This document shows, in pieces, positions 4,874 to 43,725 of a stretch of DNA of 64,000 bases; the first letter of the stretch is position 1; each line of letters opens with the position of its first letter. Source of the stretch: Peptostreptococcus equinus (GTDB taxonomy: Bacteria; Bacillota; Clostridia; Peptostreptococcales; Peptostreptococcaceae); assembly GCF_027125355.1 (NCBI RefSeq), contig NZ_CP114052.1:1674001-1738000 (forward strand), read 5' to 3'. The translations under genes and the position numbers were made by a program. Below the pieces are notes generated by a model that made no database searches, was not told the origin of the DNA, and worked only from the letters and a program-made list of their open reading frames with translations.

Positions 4874-5821
4874 TTAATTTGAGAGTGGATCAAGTCCATA
4901 ATCAAACAAGACAATATCGATTTTTAAAACATTGTAATCTCTATGTTCGATAAAATATTCAACTATAGCATCAGTCTGAGAAATTGGAGATAGGGAATAA
5001 CCAGCTAGATTCAAAAAATCTACAGTTTCGTCAAGGTTAAGCTTTAAACCAACGGCCAAGGCAAGCATTTTCTCTTTTGAAGGTTTAATTTTACCCTTTA
5101 AGAGCTTAGAAAAATACTGCTTGGAAATATTGGCCGCAGCGTAAACCTCCGAATTTTTAAGCCCTTTTCTATTAATCAATCTCCGTAAGTACTTATCAAA
5201 AGATTCCTTGTAAATACCCATTAAAATATCATCCAAATTATCTTTTTCTATAGATGCTTGGTTAATTGTACAATCAAAATCTAAATCATCTTCTGAAGGA
5301 AGCGCACCAAAGCTTCCAACTTCTTGACTAAATTCTAAACTTTCAAGTTCCAGTTCTTCAAAACCTTCATTTTCATACTCTACTTCTAATGCTTTTCCTA
5401 CATAGGCATCATCTATAAATTGAGACACCTCATCGACGAGTTTTCCAGAAATTTTAACTGTATCACTTATAGATACTACTAAAATAATCTCCATATCATG
5501 ATTTCTTAAAAACTCTGTAAAAGCATCGATGGCAATTTGAATGGCTAATTCCTTAGGAAAGGCATACGTTCCCGTTGCCAATAGAGGAAAAACTATAGAC
5601 TTACAACCCTTTCTTACAGCCAGACTCAAAGATTCATCATAGTACTGTCTAAGCAAGGCGTCTTCATTATTTTTACCACCTTGCCAGCATGGACTACTAG
5701 CTTGAATAATATATTTTGCAGATTCTACACCATCACCTATCTCTACAAATTGATTTGCTGTATTTACAATGGCATCTGCACTTATTTTTGTAATGTCGCT
5801 CCTGATAATTTTAAATGGCAT
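4874..5821 (-). CDS. Macro domain protein with C-terminal XRE-like HTH domain
   Basis: 315 residues. Residues 1-140 are a macro (ADP-ribose-binding) domain: MPFKIIRSDITKISADAIVNTAN, then CKSIVFPLLATGTYAFP, the phosphate-binding loop. The usual glycine-rich GGGVD loop is replaced by EIGDGVESAKY, so binding or hydrolysis may be altered. Residues about 195-300 look like an HTH module (LKNSEVYAAANISKQYFSKLLKG, with LGLKLNLDE-like helices after it). A combined ADP-ribose sensor and DNA-binding regulator is a reasonable inference. The ATG at 5821 has a GGAGG 8 bp upstream and is preferred to the in-frame ATG at 5836. The coiled-coil gene lies just upstream and is probably co-transcribed. Confidence 0.82.
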   Translation of the reverse strand: MPFKIIRSDITKISADAIVNTANQFVEIGDGVESAKYIIQASSPCWQGGKNNEDALLRQYYDESLSLAVRKGCKSIVFPLLATGTYAFPKELAIQIAIDAFTEFLRNHDMEIILVVSISDTVKISGKLVDEVSQFIDDAYVGKALEVEYENEGFEELELESLEFSQEVGSFGALPSEDDLDFDCTINQASIEKDNLDDILMGIYKESFDKYLRRLINRKGLKNSEVYAAANISKQYFSKLLKGKIKPSKEKMLALAVGLKLNLDETVDFLNLAGYSLSPISQTDAIVEYFIEHRDYNVLKIDIVLFDYGLDPLSN

Positions 5822-6065: not shown

Positions 6066-6560
6066 AAATACACCTCATTAAATTTTTTAATACTAAGCTC
6101 GACAAACGCACCCGCAATAAAATTATTTATGTACAGGTTCAATTAATTAACATTTTATAAGTAGCTTTATTATTTATCATTCCTTGTCACCATTATACCT
6201 TTTACTGTAAAAGATTCATAGACTTTAAAAATATTTTAGTATAAATATGATGCTATTTAAACAAGTTTATTTATCAAGATATTCTTTTTATAGGATAAAA
6301 ATACCTCTTGAACACATTGCCTTAAAGTGATTTATTCTCCATATTTCTAATCTAATATTTTATCGTACAACGCTGCACATATTTGCCTTTTCGGTCTTAT
6401 TCAAACCGACATTCAAACCAACGTTAGTGAGAGACATTGAAATATTAGTTAGAGATTTATGTGTGGAAAATGATGAAATATACTGACATTTATTTCCAAA
6501 TAAACATAGTAAAGTTGTAAATAGAATAAATAACGCCATTTTTACGCCAATAACAGTTAA
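6066..6560. other. Gene-poor stretch with possible gene remnant
   Basis: No convincing gene. The minus strand at about 6360-6440 can be read as TNVGLNVGLNKTEK, like the repeated NVGLN/NVGIN segment near the C-terminus of AlbA_2 (Schlafen-type) ATP-binding proteins. It is followed by a stop and has no intact domain, so it is at most a decayed fragment. The rest is AT-rich and holds the upstream region of the coiled-coil gene. Confidence 0.35.
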
Positions 6561-6603
6561 AAAAACGGTGCAACCTTTGAAATACAAAGGTTGCACCGTT
6601 TTT
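6561..6603. terminator. Strong bidirectional terminator at the island's left border
   Basis: A perfect 19-bp inverted repeat (arms 6561-6579 and 6585-6603, loop AAATA) starts with A-tract and ends with T-tract, so it can stop transcription from both sides. It follows the last small reading frame of the restriction-modification operon. Because a degenerate copy of the guaA 3' end adjoins it, it may originally have been the guaA terminator (inference). Confidence 0.88.
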
Positions 6604-6608
6604 ATATA

Positions 6609-6731
6609 CTATTCCCACTCGATATGTCCATCGATATCATTTTGTATAAATAGCATAAAATCAAGGTTATTCTTATCTGTTTTAGCCCTATTATCCATTT
6701 CATTTCTGTTTATCTGATTTTTTGCAAGCAT
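6609..6731 (-). CDS. 40-residue reading frame ending in a guaA-like C-terminus
   Basis: This small frame starts 10 bp after the 102-residue gene and ends just before the border terminator, so it is in the same transcript. Its last residues are GHIEWE, while GMP synthase in this window ends GTIEWE. At the DNA level, positions 6601-6629 match 12848-12876 (the guaA 3' end) at 22 of 29 bases in direct orientation. It may therefore be an integration-site relic rather than a working gene. The ribosome site is weak. Confidence 0.4.
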   Translation of the reverse strand: MLAKNQINRNEMDNRAKTDKNNLDFMLFIQNDIDGHIEWE

Positions 6732-6740
6732 AAAACTTTT

Positions 6741-7049
6741 CTAAGCATTATCTAATTCTATTATTTTTTTAAAATCAGATTCTGCATTTTTGATTTCACT
6801 ATTTATTTGTATCACTATATCATTTGCCACTTCATTAAATAAATCGTTGTTTGAATCATCCAACTCAAATTCTATAAGTTTTTTTCTCTTAATTACTTCC
6901 TGAAAGATTAAATTAAATAAATTTTCAATATCTTGCGTATTGCTGTCAGTTATATTAACTGAACCATTTTCTAAATCTGGTATTAAAAATTTAACGGTTT
7001 CATTATTTTCACTTCTATCTACTTTGAATTTCATTCTTATTGATTCCAT
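6741..7049 (-). CDS. Hypothetical protein of the restriction-modification operon
   Basis: 102 residues, acidic, no recognised domain. It opens MESIRMKFKVDRSENNETVKF and contains a long helical C-terminal half. Its start overlaps the end of the ATPase gene by 13 bp, which implies translational coupling and a joint function with the ATPase. Confidence 0.65.
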   Translation of the reverse strand: MESIRMKFKVDRSENNETVKFLIPDLENGSVNITDSNTQDIENLFNLIFQEVIKRKKLIEFELDDSNNDLFNEVANDIVIQINSEIKNAESDFKKIIELDNA

Positions 7050-8569
7050 ATGTTTCTCCTTATATTGAACATGTATTCACTTCCTTCTAAATGTTTAATA
7101 GCTTCATCTTCCCACGATATTATATCGTTAGTATTTTTAATTGATACCAGTTCATTTGCATACATATTGCCAGCAAAATATATTTCCGCTTCTGAATCTC
7201 CTACATAGTTGCAATATATTGTTTGGGTTGGCAATGTATTAATTGCAATATTGGCATTATGTGTAGATAAAACCACCGTTTTCCCTATATCTCTTAAATA
7301 CTTTAATTTAGGAATTATATATTCTGATATATATTTATTTCCAAGTCCTCGTTCTATTTCATCAAACAAGTAACAATCAAAAGCCAGATTTTCAATCAAT
7401 CCACTAATTGATAGAATTGATTTTTCACCTTCCGAAGGTTCATATATAGTATCGTCTTCTCTAATAACCATGCAAGACTTCTTTACACAATCACTAAAAT
7501 ATTCTGCACCGCACTTTTGTAACTCATCAATCGAAAACAATTTATTCATTCCCAACAAATCTTTAACAGAAAAATTTGCTATTTTTTCTATTACACCTCG
7601 ATTAACAGAAATCTTATTTCTGTCAAATGGAGAACCTTTAACATATTTTTCATTTTTATCCATTACTTTCACTTCCACTTTGGAATAAATCTGCCCCTTA
7701 TCTGGTAATTCTCCAATTTTAATTTTTTTAGATGATTTAACATTCTCTAAACTATTATTAATATTTTTGATTTTTTCAAAAATAGCTCGTCTCTCGGAAA
7801 CCATTTTTGAAAATCCAATATTATTTGGTTTAGATTTTTTTCCTGTTTTTTTATCTATTATTTCTTTAATATTTTCAATAATTATACCTGTTTTAGAAAC
7901 AGAAAATATTTCTTTAGCTTTCTCTATTGTATCTTCATAAATTTCTTGTTTAAGCTTATATAATTCATCAGATAAATTTTCTTTATGCTCGTTTTCATCA
8001 TTTCTATACTCTGTATTTATATTATTAACTTTATTGATATAATTAATATTTTCCCTATATTTTATAGAAACATCTTGGATAGTTTGAGATATATTTTTAT
8101 TATACAAACATTCTGTTTTTCTTATTTTCTTTGCATTTTTTGATACATTTTGATTTTCATAGTACTTCAAATATTTACCAATAAAATTAGTGTAAGTACT
8201 CTCTTTATAATTTAATACAGAGTCTAAATCATTAATTATATAATCTTTTAAAACGCTATCTATTTCAACTTCATCCTCATTATTTTTCAATATTTCATCA
8301 TAGACTTTTTGATAATCTTTTCCTTCGTGAATAAAAATCTTTTTCCCATTTTCACTTAATTTAGGAAAAATATGATTCTTCATTAACACAGTCTTTCCTG
8401 AACCCTTGCCACCAAAAATCACATTAATATCCTGATATATATCCAACTTGTTGTTATAATCCAAATCTATTTCCATTTTTTCGCAATGATTCAATACGGA
8501 TTTTATAAACACATTAGATGATGTTGCTAACTCATAAAATTTACCGAAACTATCAATTGCAAATTTCAT
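7037..8569 (-). CDS. ABC-type/AAA ATPase associated with the restriction-modification system
   Basis: 510 residues. Walker A GGKGSGKT lies at residues 53-60, an ABC-like signature PSEGEKSIL near 370, Walker B CYLFDEIERG near 396 and the switch histidine VVLSTHNANIA near 430. Between the halves of the ATPase is about 300 residues of lysine/glutamate-rich, probably coiled-coil sequence, as in SMC/RecN-like and OLD-like defence ATPases. No nuclease (TOPRIM or HNH) domain is visible. It follows the endonuclease gene by 44 bp on the same strand. The frame stays open upstream of the ATG without another standard start. A role in defence is inferred from position only. Confidence 0.8.
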   Translation of the reverse strand: MKFAIDSFGKFYELATSSNVFIKSVLNHCEKMEIDLDYNNKLDIYQDINVIFGGKGSGKTVLMKNHIFPKLSENGKKIFIHEGKDYQKVYDEILKNNEDEVEIDSVLKDYIINDLDSVLNYKESTYTNFIGKYLKYYENQNVSKNAKKIRKTECLYNKNISQTIQDVSIKYRENINYINKVNNINTEYRNDENEHKENLSDELYKLKQEIYEDTIEKAKEIFSVSKTGIIIENIKEIIDKKTGKKSKPNNIGFSKMVSERRAIFEKIKNINNSLENVKSSKKIKIGELPDKGQIYSKVEVKVMDKNEKYVKGSPFDRNKISVNRGVIEKIANFSVKDLLGMNKLFSIDELQKCGAEYFSDCVKKSCMVIREDDTIYEPSEGEKSILSISGLIENLAFDCYLFDEIERGLGNKYISEYIIPKLKYLRDIGKTVVLSTHNANIAINTLPTQTIYCNYVGDSEAEIYFAGNMYANELVSIKNTNDIISWEDEAIKHLEGSEYMFNIRRNIWNQ

Positions 8570-8613
8570 TTCTGGTAATCTTTTTGCTTCTTCCGAATAT
8601 TTTCCCCAATCTT

Positions 8614-10335
8614 TTACATGCCTGTAATGGTTTCTTCATCTCTGGTATATGGAATTATCTTTCTATATCTAAAATCTGATATTACATTTTTATCCAAATA
8701 AGTGCTAACAAACAAGCTATAATCAAATGGATTATTAAATCTAATCCTATAATCTCCTAAATGTCTTGAAACAGGCTCCATTTCCATTCTTCTTTGATTG
8801 TTTCCGTCTGCAAGAGTTGCTTCAAGTAATAGCGAATGTTTAGGATAAGAAGTGCATGCTTCATATTCATATATAATGTCTGCATAACCTCCTGCTGCAT
8901 GTGTCTTAGGCAATAAATTAGCTTCTAATGATAACTTCATGAAGTCCAAAATATTCCCTTGTCTTTCACTTACTTTATACCATATAATTCCCAAAATATA
9001 TTCAAAGATAGTTGGTACTGCAGCCTCATCTGTAACAAGTTCTTCAATCCTTTTATCATCACGTTTCTCAAAACAATTTAGTAACTCTATAAGCACAGAA
9101 TCGTTAAATTTCTTATCAATCAAAGTGTTAAATCTTCTGTATCGTTCATCATTTACATAAGTTGCAGCTTGTTCCGGACTCTTAATTGTAATGCCTAAAT
9201 CTTTACTTAAAGCTACATATACTTTGCTAATATCTAACTTGAATGCTTCTGATATAGTTTCAAGTGAGGCATCAGCTCTGAGATTATTATCTCTACTAAA
9301 AGTTTCTGTATACAGAACATCAATGATTTCTTTAAAATAATATTTTGGAATTGTATCCAACTTAATCATACGATCTTCAAAAATTAGAGTATCTGTAATA
9401 TTAAAATATCTTCTATTTAAATCAAAATAATCAGATAAAGTCGCCATTGCTTTAAAAACATGTAAATATCTGAAAAATACTTCTTTTAGTTCCATCTCAT
9501 TTTTACAGTTTATAAATGGGCATTGTTTGTGAATTGAAGACTTCCCATTTTTTCTTACAACACCAATATTGGTTGTTTTAAATAGTAAACTTCTCCACAA
9601 CGTTCCAGGTTTTTGATTTATATTCTTTGCGGAATTTAATAGTGATTCATAATCGCTTTTCCCATCAAGAAATACCTTCTTTAAATTCTCATATAATTTA
9701 TAGTAAGGCTTGTCATAGCTTCTGCTTTTACGATTCATTCCAACTAAACATATTAGATTTTCATCAACATCAGAGGCTATAAATTCTTCCCTAGCAAGTT
9801 TGTAGTTATCCATTTGCATAAGCCTCTTATAAATTATTTCTTCCGGCAAAATTTTGCCTTCTCTATATAACTTGATATCCGATATGATTTGCTTTGCAGT
9901 TTCATCATCTCTAATTAACGGAACGAAATAAGTAAACTCATCATAACTTAAAAACTCAAGTTCCGTCAGGCACTTTACAACCGCAATAAACGGTCTAACA
10001 ATACTACCACTTACATCTATACTTGTTTTAAGAAGCTGTTTTAGATAGATAAAGCTGTCTCTATTAATATTAAACACATTATTGGTTTCAAAATCCCCAC
10101 TACTTGTTATTTTAAGGAGTTCTCTTCCTGCATCCGTAATCAGTCTATCTTCTGTAATTAAACCAATATCAACCAACCCTGATGTTTTTTCTCTGGCATC
10201 TTTATCCTTCCTTTTCGCATTCCCTGTTAAGAAGGCTTTGTTTTTCATGAAATCATAATATTTTTCTTGTAATTCATTATTCCAGTTCCATTTAGATTTC
10301 TTTATGACTTCATTATAAAACTCATCAAGAAGCAA
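8614..10335 (-). CDS. AlwI/BstNBI-type type IIS restriction endonuclease, N-terminus removed by inversion
   Basis: 573 residues as it stands, from a TTG at 10335. The C-terminal catalytic region is characteristic of the AlwI family (PF09491): LDFMKLSLEANLLPKTHAAG, GGYADIIYEYE near 480, YPKHSLLLEATL near 503 and RRMEMEPVSRHLGDY near 520; the D-ExT pair resembles a PD-(D/E)xK site. The frame stays open upstream of 10335 and encodes CWVIGTTSFRTAKLN-like family N-terminal sequence up to about 10396, where the match stops. The missing start (ATGGCTAATAAAAG) is found inverted at 11508-11545. Joining the two gives 606 residues, close to the 604 of BstNBI. Known family members recognise GGATC or GAGTC; the site here cannot be read from the sequence. 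Confidence 0.9.
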   Translation of the reverse strand: MLLDEFYNEVIKKSKWNWNNELQEKYYDFMKNKAFLTGNAKRKDKDAREKTSGLVDIGLITEDRLITDAGRELLKITSSGDFETNNVFNINRDSFIYLKQLLKTSIDVSGSIVRPFIAVVKCLTELEFLSYDEFTYFVPLIRDDETAKQIISDIKLYREGKILPEEIIYKRLMQMDNYKLAREEFIASDVDENLICLVGMNRKSRSYDKPYYKLYENLKKVFLDGKSDYESLLNSAKNINQKPGTLWRSLLFKTTNIGVVRKNGKSSIHKQCPFINCKNEMELKEVFFRYLHVFKAMATLSDYFDLNRRYFNITDTLIFEDRMIKLDTIPKYYFKEIIDVLYTETFSRDNNLRADASLETISEAFKLDISKVYVALSKDLGITIKSPEQAATYVNDERYRRFNTLIDKKFNDSVLIELLNCFEKRDDKRIEELVTDEAAVPTIFEYILGIIWYKVSERQGNILDFMKLSLEANLLPKTHAAGGYADIIYEYEACTSYPKHSLLLEATLADGNNQRRMEMEPVSRHLGDYRIRFNNPFDYSLFVSTYLDKNVISDFRYRKIIPYTRDEETITGM

Positions 10336-10442
10336 TAATTGTGCCTCGATTTTTAAATTTAATTTTGCAGTTCTAAAACTTGTAGTTCCTATAACCCAAG
10401 GGAAATGATAGGTCGAATGCGAAAATATCAGATGAAGATATT

Positions 10443-11507
10443 ATGAGAATTCTTAGTAAGAAGGGGAAAGTTATGATATTCGAATCGGACTACAAGAGTT
10501 TTTCAACTGGGAAATCAGATATAAAAGATAATAAAGAAAGGCTATTTTTATGTGAAGTATTTAGTGAAGATAAGAAGAAAATTAATATACCTTGTCCGTT
10601 TAATTATACAGGTGGAAAATTTAAGCTGTTGGAGCAGTTACAACCTTTATTTGATGAAAAGAAAGTATTTTTAGATTTATTTTCAGGAGGATGTAATGTT
10701 GGAATAAACTCAACTTCTTCAAAAGTTATTTTTAATGATTTGAATGAAAAACTGATAGATTTAATTAGGTATATTAAAGATACCAACACTAAGATATTGT
10801 TAGAGCAGATAGATAATATTATTGACAAATATGGTTTATCCAAGACGTCGTTATATGGATATTCTTACTATGATTGTGATAGTAGTATGGGATTAGCTAA
10901 ATATAATAAAGAAAGATTTTTGAATTTAAGAGAAGATTTTAATTCTAAAACTATGGCAGGAGAAATAAATTATTCAATGTTGTATGTACTTATGGTTTAT
11001 TCTTTCAATAATCAAATCCGTTTTAATCGAAAAGGGTTGTTTAATCTTCCTGTAGGGAAGAGGGATTTTAATTCTAAAATGAGAAGTAAACTTGTGTTAT
11101 TTTCAGAAGAGCTGAAAAATAAAGATGTTCAGTTTATGAAAAAAGATTTTAGGAATATTGTGTTAGATGATCTTCCTAAAGAAACTTTTATTTATTGTGA
11201 TCCGCCGTATTTAATTACAAATGCAACATATAATGAAAATGGAATGTGGAATGAAATAGAAGAAAAAGCTCTACTTGAATTTTTGGATGAATCTAATGAA
11301 AGAGGTTTTAGCTTTGCTTTGTCCAATGTTTTGGAAAGTAAAAATAAAAGAAATGATATTTTATATAATTGGATTGAAAGTAAGGGGTATTACTGCAATC
11401 ATCTGAATAAAAGTTATTCAAATAGCAATTATCACAGAAAAAATAAGAATAGTATATCTGAAGAAGTTTTAATTACTAATTATCCGGTTGATTGGAGGAA
11501 TAAGTAA
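10443..11507 (+). CDS. D12-class (Dam-like) adenine-N6 DNA methyltransferase, distal half of a fused enzyme
   Basis: 354 residues. The first 45 or so (MRILSKKGKVMIFESDYKSF...ERLFLCE) do not belong to this catalytic domain: they are the missing C-terminal tail of the methyltransferase at 11512-12603. A complete D12 domain then begins: CPFNYTGGKFKLLEQL near 58 (SAM-binding motif I), VFLDLFSGGCNVG, and the catalytic DPPY in FIYCDPPYLITNATY near 260. The gene runs opposite to all its neighbours because it lies inside the inverted segment. In this orientation it has no visible promoter. An alternative start is the ATG at 10473, which has AAGGGGAAAG before it. Confidence 0.9.
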   Translation: MRILSKKGKVMIFESDYKSFSTGKSDIKDNKERLFLCEVFSEDKKKINIPCPFNYTGGKFKLLEQLQPLFDEKKVFLDLFSGGCNVGINSTSSKVIFNDLNEKLIDLIRYIKDTNTKILLEQIDNIIDKYGLSKTSLYGYSYYDCDSSMGLAKYNKERFLNLREDFNSKTMAGEINYSMLYVLMVYSFNNQIRFNRKGLFNLPVGKRDFNSKMRSKLVLFSEELKNKDVQFMKKDFRNIVLDDLPKETFIYCDPPYLITNATYNENGMWNEIEEKALLEFLDESNERGFSFALSNVLESKNKRNDILYNWIESKGYYCNHLNKSYSNSNYHRKNKNSISEEVLITNYPVDWRNK

Positions 11508-11545
11508 ATGGCTAATAAAAGTATTCCTTATCAAAGTTTTTGTTG
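11508..11545 (+). pseudogene. Detached N-terminal exon-like piece of the restriction endonuclease
   Basis: ATG at 11508 follows the methyltransferase stop codon directly (TAAATG) and has a GGAGGAATAAG ribosome site. It encodes MANKSIPYQSFC and then leaves the AlwI family sequence at the inversion junction near 11543. It is the true start of the endonuclease gene whose body lies at 8614-10396 on the other strand. Confidence 0.8.
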
Positions 11546-12603
11546 TCGGACATATTGTTATATGAGAGTAAGATATACTTTGTATCAGCCCTTTCAATAA
11601 GTTCCTCGAATGCTTTTGTAGCCGTAATCATGCAGTAATCACTTTTAAGTGAAGTCCTATCCATCTTTCTTGCAACCCCGTAAACTTCAGGTTTTTCCCA
11701 TCTTGCCACATTTTCAAGTAAATGATATGCATCGCAATACTGCCTTGAGTTATATGGAGGATCTAAGTACAACAAATCCCCCTTAATACTTTTAATAAGT
11801 TTATTTGCATCTATGTTATAACAAATATTATTAGAATTTATATTTTTTTCAGGTAACAAAACATTCAATACTAATTTTTTCTCAAAATCAACATTTTTTC
11901 TATATGCATCGTAATGTCCAACCGTATTTGCAATCTTATCCATTGCATATAGAAGTGATGTAATTAAAATCGCATATTCCTTAAAATTTATTTCTTTGTT
12001 TTTATACTTTGCTTCTATATCTTCTCTTATATATCCTATCTTGCTACAATCATCAGCAGAAAAGAATGTATTTGCAAAATTTTCTCGCATATAATTATTT
12101 TCTTTTGTTTTAATTTGATTATAGTCGTATATAAGCTCAATTATCTTTTTGCTTGAATATTTTTTATATCCAAACCATGCATAATTGGAAATATAATTAC
12201 TATACAGTAAATCATTTGTGATAAGCATTTTATCCTTAAAAGTATTCGCAACTGCACCGGTTCCACTAAATATATCAATAACAATATTTACACCTTTGCA
12301 ATTTTCATCAACAGTCTTTCTTATAAAATCGGAAAGAGAATATTTGTTTCCTAAATATCGTCTATTATTTATAAATGACTGCTTTAATCCTAATTTATAT
12401 ATTAAAGAATCTATATCATTCTTATCTTCTAAAGAATCTGTATACAAAATTTTCTTTATAGCTTCAACTGTATTTTCATCCCAAAAGTATCTTCCTGTAT
12501 CACTTCTCGGAATTAAAATATTTTCTTTATCTATTAATTTATATAAATATGACTTAGAAATGTCTAATTCTTTTATTATATCAGCAACATTAATACTTGC
12601 CAT
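11512..12603 (-). CDS. HTH-D12 adenine-N6 DNA methyltransferase, C-terminally truncated by inversion
   Basis: 363 residues from the ATG at 12603, chosen because GGAGGAATAAAG precedes it. Residues 1-55 are a MerR-like HTH (INVADIIKELDISKSYLYKLI). The D12 methyltransferase domain follows: NRRYLGNKYSLSDFI, motif I VIDIFSGTGAVANTF and catalytic DPPY in LLYLDPPYNSRQYCDAYHLL near 280. The natural sequence ends at YILLSYNNMSD; the last dozen residues are out-of-context sequence read through the junction. The missing 45-residue tail and the second methyltransferase domain lie inverted at 10397-11507. Type IIS sites are asymmetric and need two methylations, which explains a double-domain enzyme. Confidence 0.9.
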   Translation of the reverse strand: MASINVADIIKELDISKSYLYKLIDKENILIPRSDTGRYFWDENTVEAIKKILYTDSLEDKNDIDSLIYKLGLKQSFINNRRYLGNKYSLSDFIRKTVDENCKGVNIVIDIFSGTGAVANTFKDKMLITNDLLYSNYISNYAWFGYKKYSSKKIIELIYDYNQIKTKENNYMRENFANTFFSADDCSKIGYIREDIEAKYKNKEINFKEYAILITSLLYAMDKIANTVGHYDAYRKNVDFEKKLVLNVLLPEKNINSNNICYNIDANKLIKSIKGDLLYLDPPYNSRQYCDAYHLLENVARWEKPEVYGVARKMDRTSLKSDYCMITATKAFEELIERADTKYILLSYNNMSDNKNFDKEYFY

Positions 12604-12643
12604 CTTTATTCCTCCTTGCCACATTTTAATCTATTTAGTAGAC

Positions 12644-12652
12644 ATTATAGCA
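12644..12652 (-). promoter_or_regulatory. Extended -10 promoter of the restriction-modification operon
   Basis: The minus strand reads TGCTATAAT (12652-12644), an extended -10 element, about 40 bp before the methyltransferase start; no good -35 is seen. A short palindrome GATGCTATTAGCATC lies nearby (about 12691-12705). The methyltransferase HTH domain could act here (inference). Confidence 0.55.
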
Positions 12653-12784
12653 TATAATTCCTTATTTTTATATATTTTAGAGAAAAAAACAGATGCTATT
12701 AGCATCATAAATTTATTAACATTTTGTATTAACATGTATTCACCCTCTTCCTCAATAAGTACTTTTAGATGATTGAGTACATTG

Positions 12785-12821
12785 AAAAAAGCCCTAGCTG
12801 TGTTAACAGCTAAGGCTTTTT
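12785..12821. terminator. Terminator downstream of guaA
   Basis: A-tract, then stem TAGCTGT/ACAGCTA with loop GTTA, an outer GCC/GGC pair and a T-tract on the plus side; symmetric enough to act both ways. It lies 34 bp after the guaA stop codon. Confidence 0.82.
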
Positions 12822-12855
12822 GAACAGTGCGAAAATCGCTAAAATTACTTATATC

Positions 12856-14391
12856 TTACTCCCATTCGATAGTTCCAGGAGGCTTACTTGTTATGTCATA
12901 CACAACTCTATTAACTCCCTGACACTCATTGATTATTCTATTACTTATTCTTTCCAATACTTCATAAGGTATCTTGTACCAGTCTGAAGTCATTCCATCA
13001 CTTGATGCTACTGCTCTTAGTCCTACTAGGTGGGCATAAGTTCTTTCGTCACCCATTACTCCAACTGTCATTACATCTGGAAGTGTTGCAAATGCCTGCC
13101 AAATTTCTTTGTATAGGCCAGCTTTTCTAAGTTCGTCCATGTATACAGCATCAGCTTCTCTTAGGATGTCGCATTTTTCCTTTGTTACTTCACCTATTAC
13201 TCTGATTCCAAGACCTGGGCCTGGGAATGGATGTCTAAAGATCAAGTTTTCTTCTATTCCTAATTCAAGACCTATTTTTCTAACTTCGTCCTTGAATAAT
13301 TCTCTTAATGGTTCTATTATTTCCTGGAAATCTACATCTTCAGGTAATCCACCAACATTGTGATGAGATTTGATTGTTGCAGAGTCTCCGTTACCACTTT
13401 CAACTACATCTGGGTAAATTGTTCCCTGTACCAAGAATTCCATCTTACCAAGCTTCTGAGATTCAGCTTCAAACACCCTGATGAATTCTTCACCGATTAT
13501 TTTTCTCTTAGCTTCTGGTTCTGTAACTCCCTTTAATTTTCCTAGGAATCTGTCTTCTGCATTGACTCTAATTAGGTTCATGCCGAATTTTCCTCTGAAT
13601 ATTCTTTCTACGTCGTCCCCTTCGTTCTTTCTAAGTAGACCATGGTCCACGAATACGCAAGTAAGGTTGTCACCTATTGCTCTGTGCATTAGGGCTGCTG
13701 CAACTGAAGAATCTACTCCACCACTTAGGGCACATAGGGCTTTCTTGTCTCCAACCTTTGCCTTTATTTCTGCTACCTTGTCTTCTATAAATGAACTAGT
13801 TGTCCAATCTCCACTTACCTGACAAATCTTGTACAAGAAGTTTGTAAGTATTTTGTCCCCTTCTAGTGAATGTTCTACTTCTGGGTGGAACTGAACTCCG
13901 TATAATTTCTTTTCTACATTGTGCATTGCTGCTACTGGACAGTTTCCTGTTGTTGCAGTTACTTCAAATCCATCTGGTGCCTTAGATATATAATCTGTAT
14001 GGCTCATCCATACTTGATTTGTGCTTAGGCCTTCAAATATTGGAGAATTTCCATATTCTATCTTTGTTTTTCCGTATTCTCTTGTCATATTATCACCCTT
14101 TTGAACTGTTGCTCCAAGTAGGTGAGCCATCAACTGGTCTCCATAGCAAATTCCAAGAATAGGTACTCTCATTTCGAATATTTCCTTAGATATCTTTGGA
14201 GAGTCCTCTAAATAGGCGCTGTTTGGTCCTCCAGTAAATATTATTCCCTTAGGATTTTTTTCCTTTATCTTTTCTATTGGTGTAGTATATGGTAATATTT
14301 CACAATATACATTATTTTCTCTGACTCTTCTAGCTATTAGCTGGTTATACTGACCGCCAAAATCTATTACAAGAACTATCTCATGCTTCAT
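12856..14391 (-). CDS. guaA: GMP synthase (glutamine-hydrolysing)
   Basis: 511 residues, normal length. The class I glutamine amidotransferase domain (residues 1-190) has [15 protein letters not shown] with the catalytic cysteine and [11 protein letters not shown] with the histidine and glutamate. The ATP-pyrophosphatase domain follows with [14 protein letters not shown] near 222, and the C-terminal dimerisation domain ends [10 protein letters not shown]. It converts XMP to GMP using glutamine and ATP. A GGGAGAA ribosome site precedes the ATG. It appears monocistronic. The 3' end is a known integration hotspot and here abuts the restriction-modification island. Confidence 0.98.
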
Positions 14392-42631: not shown

Positions 42632-43725
42632 TGAATAAAGACTACCACGAACAAGAAATTTGGACGCATATTCAAAAAGATGGATCAGTTAAGTATGAGT
42701 TACAGTATACCGCTCCAAACGGAAAAAAAAGACGAAAGACAAGGAAGTACGCTAAAGACACTGCTAAGAACAGAAATCAAGCTAAAAAGGACATTATGCA
42801 AGCTATAGATGAAGAATTTGAGCAGGCTAAGTTAGATGATTGTATCACACTTGGGAAATTAATAGATATGTGGTTCAAAACTAAGCAATATACTAGGCAA
42901 ACAACTTACAAAACAGTTAATTCTCAATTTAATTCGCTTAAAAATCTACTTGGAGAAAATTTGATAATAGATACTTTAAGTTTAAAACAAATGAATCTGC
43001 TTTTTTTAAATGCCACTAAAAGTAATAGGAAATTCATTAAAATGTTACTTAATTTTGGTTTTAGTGAAGGAATCTTAACCAACTATGAATTAAATAATTT
43101 TAAAAATATTAAAAATAGTGCTGTACATGATAATGTTGTTGAAAAAGAATACTATGAAAAAGAAGAACTAAAAGTTATTTTTAAAAATTTGAAAGAAAAA
43201 GACACTTATACAAGTGTAATGACATCTTATATTCTAGAATTTCAAACACTTACTGGTAATAGGATTGGGGAGATATTAGCTCTAAAGGATTCAGAAGTGA
43301 AAAATAATACTATTAATATTAACGCTACTTATTCAAATGGCTTTTTAGTTAATGCAACAAAAACAGCTACATCAAATAGAATACTTGGTTTAAATAAACG
43401 TTGCAAAGAAATAATATTAGAAGCTAAAAAATTGAAGTTTGAAAACGGTATTAGAAGCGACATAGTATTTTGCAGTAGAAAAGGTTTATACTTAGATATA
43501 ACTTCAATAAGGCAATGTTTAAAGTCAATTGGAGCTAATCAAAAAACTCATAAATTCAGAAAAACACACGCAAGCTTGTTAGCTGAGGCAGGTGTCCCCT
43601 TACAAGTCATAACTAGACGACTAGGGCATAAAGATTCCAAAATAACTGAAAGAATATACATACAAGTTACTAGAAAAATGAAAGAAAATGATATAGAACT
43701 ATTTTCTAATCTAGAAATACTTTAA
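42631..43725 (+). CDS. int: Tyrosine recombinase (phage integrase)
   Basis: 364 residues. An N-terminal arm-binding domain (WTHIQKDGSVKYELQYTAPN, KKRRKTRKYAKDTAK), a core-binding SAM-like domain (LGKLIDMWFKTKQYTRQTTY) and the catalytic domain: arginine in TGNRIGEILALKD, HKFRKTHASLLAEAGV (HxxR), LGHKDSKITERIYIQVT with the second histidine and nucleophile tyrosine. AGAAAGGGG precedes the ATG. It lies 80 bp from the right att core and integrates and excises the element. Confidence 0.96.
   Translation: MNKDYHEQEIWTHIQKDGSVKYELQYTAPNGKKRRKTRKYAKDTAKNRNQAKKDIMQAIDEEFEQAKLDDCITLGKLIDMWFKTKQYTRQTTYKTVNSQFNSLKNLLGENLIIDTLSLKQMNLLFLNATKSNRKFIKMLLNFGFSEGILTNYELNNFKNIKNSAVHDNVVEKEYYEKEELKVIFKNLKEKDTYTSVMTSYILEFQTLTGNRIGEILALKDSEVKNNTININATYSNGFLVNATKTATSNRILGLNKRCKEIILEAKKLKFENGIRSDIVFCSRKGLYLDITSIRQCLKSIGANQKTHKFRKTHASLLAEAGVPLQVITRRLGHKDSKITERIYIQVTRKMKENDIELFSNLEIL

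Follow-up and report, generated by a model that had tools for sequence, protein, structure and literature searches.

Two scenarios may explain why a restriction-modification (R-M) pair of Peptostreptococcus equinus is interrupted by an inverted segment of little more than a kilobase. The segment could be the movable part of a genetic switch, caught in one of two orientations. Alternatively, the inversion may have happened once and wrecked the pair. We weighed these scenarios against the reading frames of the locus, its relatives in other genomes, and the DNA around it. All coordinates refer to the window, that is, the whole stretch of 64,000 nucleotides that was analysed.

The inverted segment spans 1149 bp (10397..11545, no strand assigned) and ends in a 3-bp inverted microhomology, CAA at 10397-10399 and TTG at 11543-11545, read directly from the sequence and exactly where the initial annotation had placed it. 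When the segment was reversed in silico, a frame of 722 codons and a stop (2169 nt) was restored on the minus strand; it starts at the ATG of MASINVADI, encodes a fused D12-D12 methyltransferase, and ends in TAA. Directly after this TAA comes an ATG that opens the frame of an AlwI-family endonuclease, with 606 codons and, counting the stop, 1821 nt. Both frames and their TAA-ATG junction had been described before and were thus reproduced, and the flip, the Pfam matches, and the relatives all agree with the earlier claim that the inversion splits a D12-D12 methyltransferase and an AlwI-type endonuclease. On the plus strand at 11508..11545 lies the cut-off beginning of the endonuclease gene (MANKSIPYQSFC...), which runs from the ATG to the right break point and matches relatives.

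As the locus stands, both D12 domains are present but lie on separate ORFs of opposite strands, and they form a single protein only after the flip. The N-terminal piece (11512..12624, minus strand, 370 aa), recognized as an ORF and by Pfam and PADLOC, begins at the native start and includes the HTH region as well as the first D12 domain with its LDPPY motif; only its last 10 residues (NKNFDKEYFY) derive from the inverted segment. Pfam D12 matches its residues 90-345 (E=2e-30) over profile positions 1-241 of 253, a coverage equal to that of the best stretch in the intact relative L010, and the PADLOC model MTase_II is matched over positions 1-356 of 722. The C-terminal piece (10443..11507, plus strand, 354 aa) is an ORF separated from the start of the gene, with the second D12 domain and its CDPPY motif (E=1e-34, residues 55-313). 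Of the endonuclease, whose namesake AlwI recognizes GGATC, an ORF of 573 aa is left (8614..10335, minus strand), identified by PF09491 and by its relatives; the inversion has taken its first 33 residues, and another lesion, described below, its last 54. The locus is, by its reading frames, evidently a broken copy of an AlwI-type R-M pair and not a working member.

Which of the two orientations is ancestral can be read from the relatives, which also show that the restored frames are no accident. Among the best 120 of 4095 endonuclease relatives, 119 carry GTTSFR near the N terminus, a motif that only the flip restores here, in line with the earlier claim that the inversion costs the endonuclease 33 residues including this motif. 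Likewise, the exact start M-x-NKSIPYQSFCWVIGTTSFRTAKLN, present in 102 of the 120 listed, arises in the window only upon flipping. For the methyltransferase, the search used the present 370-aa ORF, with length limits that excluded intact 722-aa proteins, and many matches are fragments. Past SYNNM, 100 of the best 120 of 6240 relatives read on into sequence that now lies beyond the inversion; 11 further listed relatives have SYNN, nine of them continuing as near-variants of the ancestral sequence and two (P0167 and P0209) not, and the remaining 9 of the 120 lack SYNN.

A scan of GTDB genomes yielded 18 loci. In 15 of them we could locate the endonuclease and the two halves of the methyltransferase, always on the same strand; of the other three, L016 and L023 lack a methyltransferase match, and L021 has the second half only, on a 3.3-kb contig. 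Gene order is R then M in L024. In L009-L015 and L018, methyltransferase and endonuclease are open and adjacent, and the endonuclease measures 660 aa; the methyltransferase of L014 ends one codon early. In L017, too, methyltransferase and endonuclease each align in one piece and lie side by side, but it is not among these eight, whose frames were checked for stops. The comparison of related loci that the initial annotation had called for thus found the genes on one strand in 15 of 15 testable loci and the split arrangement in none.

The restored joins point the same way. In Suipraeoptans intestinalis (L018), 60 of 61 bases are identical at each join, ungapped, which bears out the claim that the joins recreate family-typical sequence. 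Over the same 61-nt stretches, L010, L012, and L013 reach 58-60 identical bases and L009, L011, L014, and L015 reach 46-57; the most distant locus, L017, has 16 and 46, the register of the first join not being assured. Because the joins match relatives without gaps, the inversion is conservative, to the base. Given these joins, the restored GTTSFR, and the same-strand order in every testable locus, the present inversion is evidently derived and the flipped order ancestral.

The flip does not make the endonuclease whole. The 606-codon frame stood as the initial annotation had given it, but the wholeness it implied did not, since the C terminus is cut relative to all 120 listed relatives. PF09491 is matched (E=1.7e-86) over profile positions 1-423 of 441, and positions 424-441 are absent, whereas the full-length relative P0058 spans 1-441. 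Sequence beyond the window's stop is present in all 120 of the best 4095 relatives, 117 with ITGMK and three with close variants. The listed relatives measure 658-663 aa, apart from one of 627 aa with a short start and one of 782 aa with a SEFIR/TIR fusion; they are listed by score, so that C-terminally shortened relatives could rank lower. The 627-aa relative, P0021, shares its internal start residue with the window's ORF, and another contig could therefore carry a similar break. The C-terminal SEFIR/TIR fusion of the 782-aa relative, P0012, perhaps arose when the endonuclease gene lost its stop and read on into its neighbour. Plasmid records with endonuclease matches number 43, each below 60% identity; viral contigs held no relatives of the endonuclease, and the solved structures gave no sequence match for it or for the methyltransferase piece.

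This second lesion lies at 8608..8614 (no strand assigned), where codon 606 of the endonuclease is fused to the middle of a PHP-AAA gene and a stop follows by chance. DNA homology to nine loci stops at 8608 and that to L015 at 8613. Next comes an ORF for an AAA ATPase of 510 aa (7037..8569, minus strand), which its relatives identify as the remnant of a 711-aa PHP-AAA-like gene. Among the best 120 of 199 relatives, 107 have at least 680 aa, and the closest listed, P0241, has 711 aa and is 97% identical; the gene here is without about 185 N-terminal residues. Before the AAA start, the same frame reads VKDWGKYSEEAKRLPE, which corresponds to residues inside the 711-aa relatives. Among the listed relatives, a few have PF02811 in their precomputed domain annotation; in the N terminus of P0241, PHP scores 20.5 bits (cut-off 26.4) and TrlF 52.5 bits (cut-off 350), both below the curated cut-offs. 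Phage records held no relatives of the AAA gene. Counting 54 endonuclease codons, the stop, a short spacer, and 185 codons, we infer a deletion or replacement in which about 0.74 kb was lost. As the C terminus of the endonuclease is gone, re-inverting the segment would not restore a normal endonuclease.

How old is the damage? But for the two lesions, nothing interrupts the frames over their 722 and 606 codons, and pairwise dN/dS to eight relatives is low, 0.085-0.160 for the methyltransferase (M) and 0.051-0.087 for the endonuclease (R). It follows that the loss is recent or that the genes are still under selection, as expected of a switch; our reading is that both lesions are probably recent. 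Changes private to the window were counted against five relatives (L009, L010, L012, L013, and L018, leaving out L011, L014, and L015). In M, nonsynonymous and synonymous private changes number 31.5 and 37.5, versus 35.5 and 99.5 pooled in the five relatives (Fisher p=0.007, on rounded counts); in R they number 6 and 22, with no excess (p=0.37). The excess in M falls mainly in the C-terminal half, with 22 nonsynonymous changes versus 9.5. This half contains a mosaic tract at 10599-11229 (M nt ~1260-1890) that is 72-90% identical to L018, while the adjoining stretches reach 92-96%. The tract suggests recombination between alleles, and its edges differ from the ends of the inversion. We considered relaxed selection in M as proof of age or decay and rejected it: the excess sits in the half with the mosaic tract and raised dS, and R has none.

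Invertible phase-variable loci such as invertons and hsdS shufflons resemble the window in that inversion of a segment alters gene integrity. The window differs from them in lacking inverted repeats and a recombinase match close by, and in that the second orientation was not seen in the loci and matches compared. Beyond CAA/TTG, no inverted repeat was found at the ends of the segment: 13 of 51 positions match in register, against a random mean of 15.1 (sd 3.3, 5000 pairs), so that matching is at or below random, as the initial annotation had remarked in noting that long inverted repeats are missing. Of 5000 pairs of sites drawn at random, 8.6% share 3 or more bases at the junction. The region has 206 inverted repeats; among the 25 longest, none links one end of the segment to the other. 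The genome has ten PF00589 (tyrosine recombinase) and six PF00239 (resolvase) matches; the closest, to PF00589, lies at 43156-43674, about 31 kb off, and the window has no match to PF00239. The recombinase search covered PF00589 and PF00239 only, and a distant enzyme could act in trans. Finally, the inverted arrangement occurs at none of the 15 testable loci, and none of the best 120 of 6240 methyltransferase matches has the tail of the inverted state, even when up to 3 substitutions are allowed.

A segment that flips both ways and thereby switches the two genes jointly between ON and OFF would fit three of our observations: the flip restores both frames exactly and they are otherwise stop-free, dN/dS is low, and P0021 is shortened to the same internal start. 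Yet such a switch would have to work from an inverted repeat of no more than 3 bp, without a match to either recombinase family closer than about 31 kb. Its inverted order is missing from the testable loci and from the listed methyltransferase matches, and its flipped endonuclease would still be cut at the C terminus. We regard it as very improbable, and the clean, reversible OFF state of two genes that the initial annotation had proposed is, on the same grounds, unsupported. Nor is the present orientation necessarily a full OFF state for methylation. In MhoVII, an R-M system of Mycoplasma hominis, two fused methyltransferases methylate complementary motifs (PMC12898733). Since the first D12 domain here is nearly whole, it may by this analogy still methylate one strand. 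The same two points would favor a switch of methylation only, in which the C-terminal lesion has killed the endonuclease for good and flipping alternates methylation of two strands with that of one; recombination sites are absent, however, the opposite orientation is unseen in the loci and in the listed matches, and among the explanations discussed here we find this one the least credible. A repeat-free epigenetic switch, in which site-specific or hot-spot inversion toggles two-strand and one-strand methylation while the endonuclease is dead or altered, is also improbable, if slightly less so than the two-way switch of both genes. Short junction homology is typical of chimeras, and the junction homology here is short, as an artefact of sequencing or assembly, for example an amplification chimera, would have it. 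A chimera creates one junction, whereas here both are reciprocal and base-exact without loss, and the genome is a single contig of 1,995,029 bases. The chimera that had been offered as an alternative is therefore unlikely, and an artefact of any such kind is as improbable, in our judgment, as the switch of both genes.

The most convincing scenario, and a very probable one, is that of an AlwI-family R-M pair, carried in an island attached to guaA, that was disabled by a one-off inversion and a second lesion. Both genes were split by a conservative inversion, presumably a single event, whose ends CAA and TTG lie 1.1 kb from each other. The other lesion, a replacement or deletion of an estimated 0.74 kb, took the last 54 residues of the endonuclease together with the PHP-like N terminus of the next gene. 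The inversion would have been an illegitimate, microhomology-type event, and the two lesions appear to be separate events. Ku was not found, so classical bacterial end joining is not an obvious route to the inversion. Broken copies occur elsewhere. In Gemella cuniculi (L016) the endonuclease is 5'-truncated and frame-broken, with no methyltransferase match in 17 kb, and in L023 it is interrupted, on a 4.2-kb contig. Of eight other congener species, one (G004) has an endonuclease match, a scrap with two stops that is all it keeps; in 70 other genomes of the family, the only endonuclease matches are this scrap and a 27% match in G044. The C-terminal endonuclease scrap (L029, G004:C5:117876-118046; L004) lies beside an ORF that by eye resembles HamA of L018, about 17 kb from guaA.

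Intact pairs show what was lost. Those of S. intestinalis (L018) and Moraxella catarrhalis (L010) share about 97% and 95% identity in R and 90% in M with the window and have the same order once the window is flipped. In both, the pair is intact with an endonuclease of 660 aa, whereas in the window the segment is inverted and the endonuclease C terminus lost. MhoVII resembles the pair in being another R-M system with two fused methyltransferases; there M1 belongs to the YhdJ branch, M2 is of D12 type, and the motifs are GATG/CATC, and the abstract names no inversion (PMC12898733). Among the papers listed on phase-variable or broken R-M systems, guaA islands, or AlwI, none has a title that points to the inversion described here.

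The 3' ends of guaA genes are insertion sites of mobilizable elements, among them ATE-1, an IncP island, and Gisul2 (PMC5704250). In the window, guaA is an ORF on the minus strand (12856..14391) whose 3' end marks the near boundary of the island; homology to eight congeners sets in from 12845-12860. The guaA 3'-end motif occurs at 12856 and again at 6609, its sole two matches in the window, and the copy at the far end is the feature shared with ATE-1, the IncP island, and Gisul2 (PMC5704250). Unlike these elements, the 6.2-kb stretch has no integrase match, and no relaxase-like ORF was noticed in it; specifically, neither PF00589 nor PF00239 has a match from 6609 to 12870, where an integrase of its own would lie. 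The far end (6598..6732), which holds the second motif copy, was identified by its homology to the site downstream of the endonuclease in L010-L013, L016, and L018, that is, in six of the relatives L010-L014, L016, and L018. In L013 the motif lies at 5208 and 12373. The pair also follows guaA in L011 and L013, and in L018 a relaxase adjoins it upstream. The locus is most likely an eroding island at the guaA 3' end.

What follows the endonuclease varies among the relatives. The third gene is AriA/OLD-like in L010, PDC-S06 in L013, bSEFIR in L016, and HamA-HamB (Hachiman) in L018; L012 has a 774-aa ORF whose start and end are nearly those of the PDC-S06 protein of L013, L014 has an AAA protein with weak PDC-S06 similarity, and the window has the broken PHP-AAA gene. 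We propose that the guaA island (6609-12870, and L010-L014, L016, and L018) is a modular defence cassette made of a constant M-R pair and a host-specific third gene. After the AAA gene lies a 102-aa ORF (6741..7049, minus strand); on plasmids of Enterococcus faecium and Staphylococcus epidermidis, relatives of the AAA gene are likewise followed by an ORF of about 100 aa, a likeness in size only. The adjoining stretch 6360-6596 has a small ORF with SLTNVGLNVGLNKTEK, which looks like a gene scrap; 38 of its bases (6388-6425) are 92% identical to the congener locus L004, where the match falls inside a 447-aa ORF with NVGLN repeats.

Read from the DNA, then, the inversion is real and base-exact, in an otherwise ordinary R-M system. 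It is unlikely to be a switch, and the perfection of the in silico flip is no evidence of one: the locus looks like a recently wrecked restriction system rather than a genetic on/off switch. As such it illustrates clearly how mobile restriction systems can disappear. With an inversion that hits both genes at once, exact to the base, protection and cutting can fall together, and the second lesion makes the loss one-way. The surrounding island, with its constant M-R pair and a varying, often defence-like next gene, may outrank the inversion in interest.
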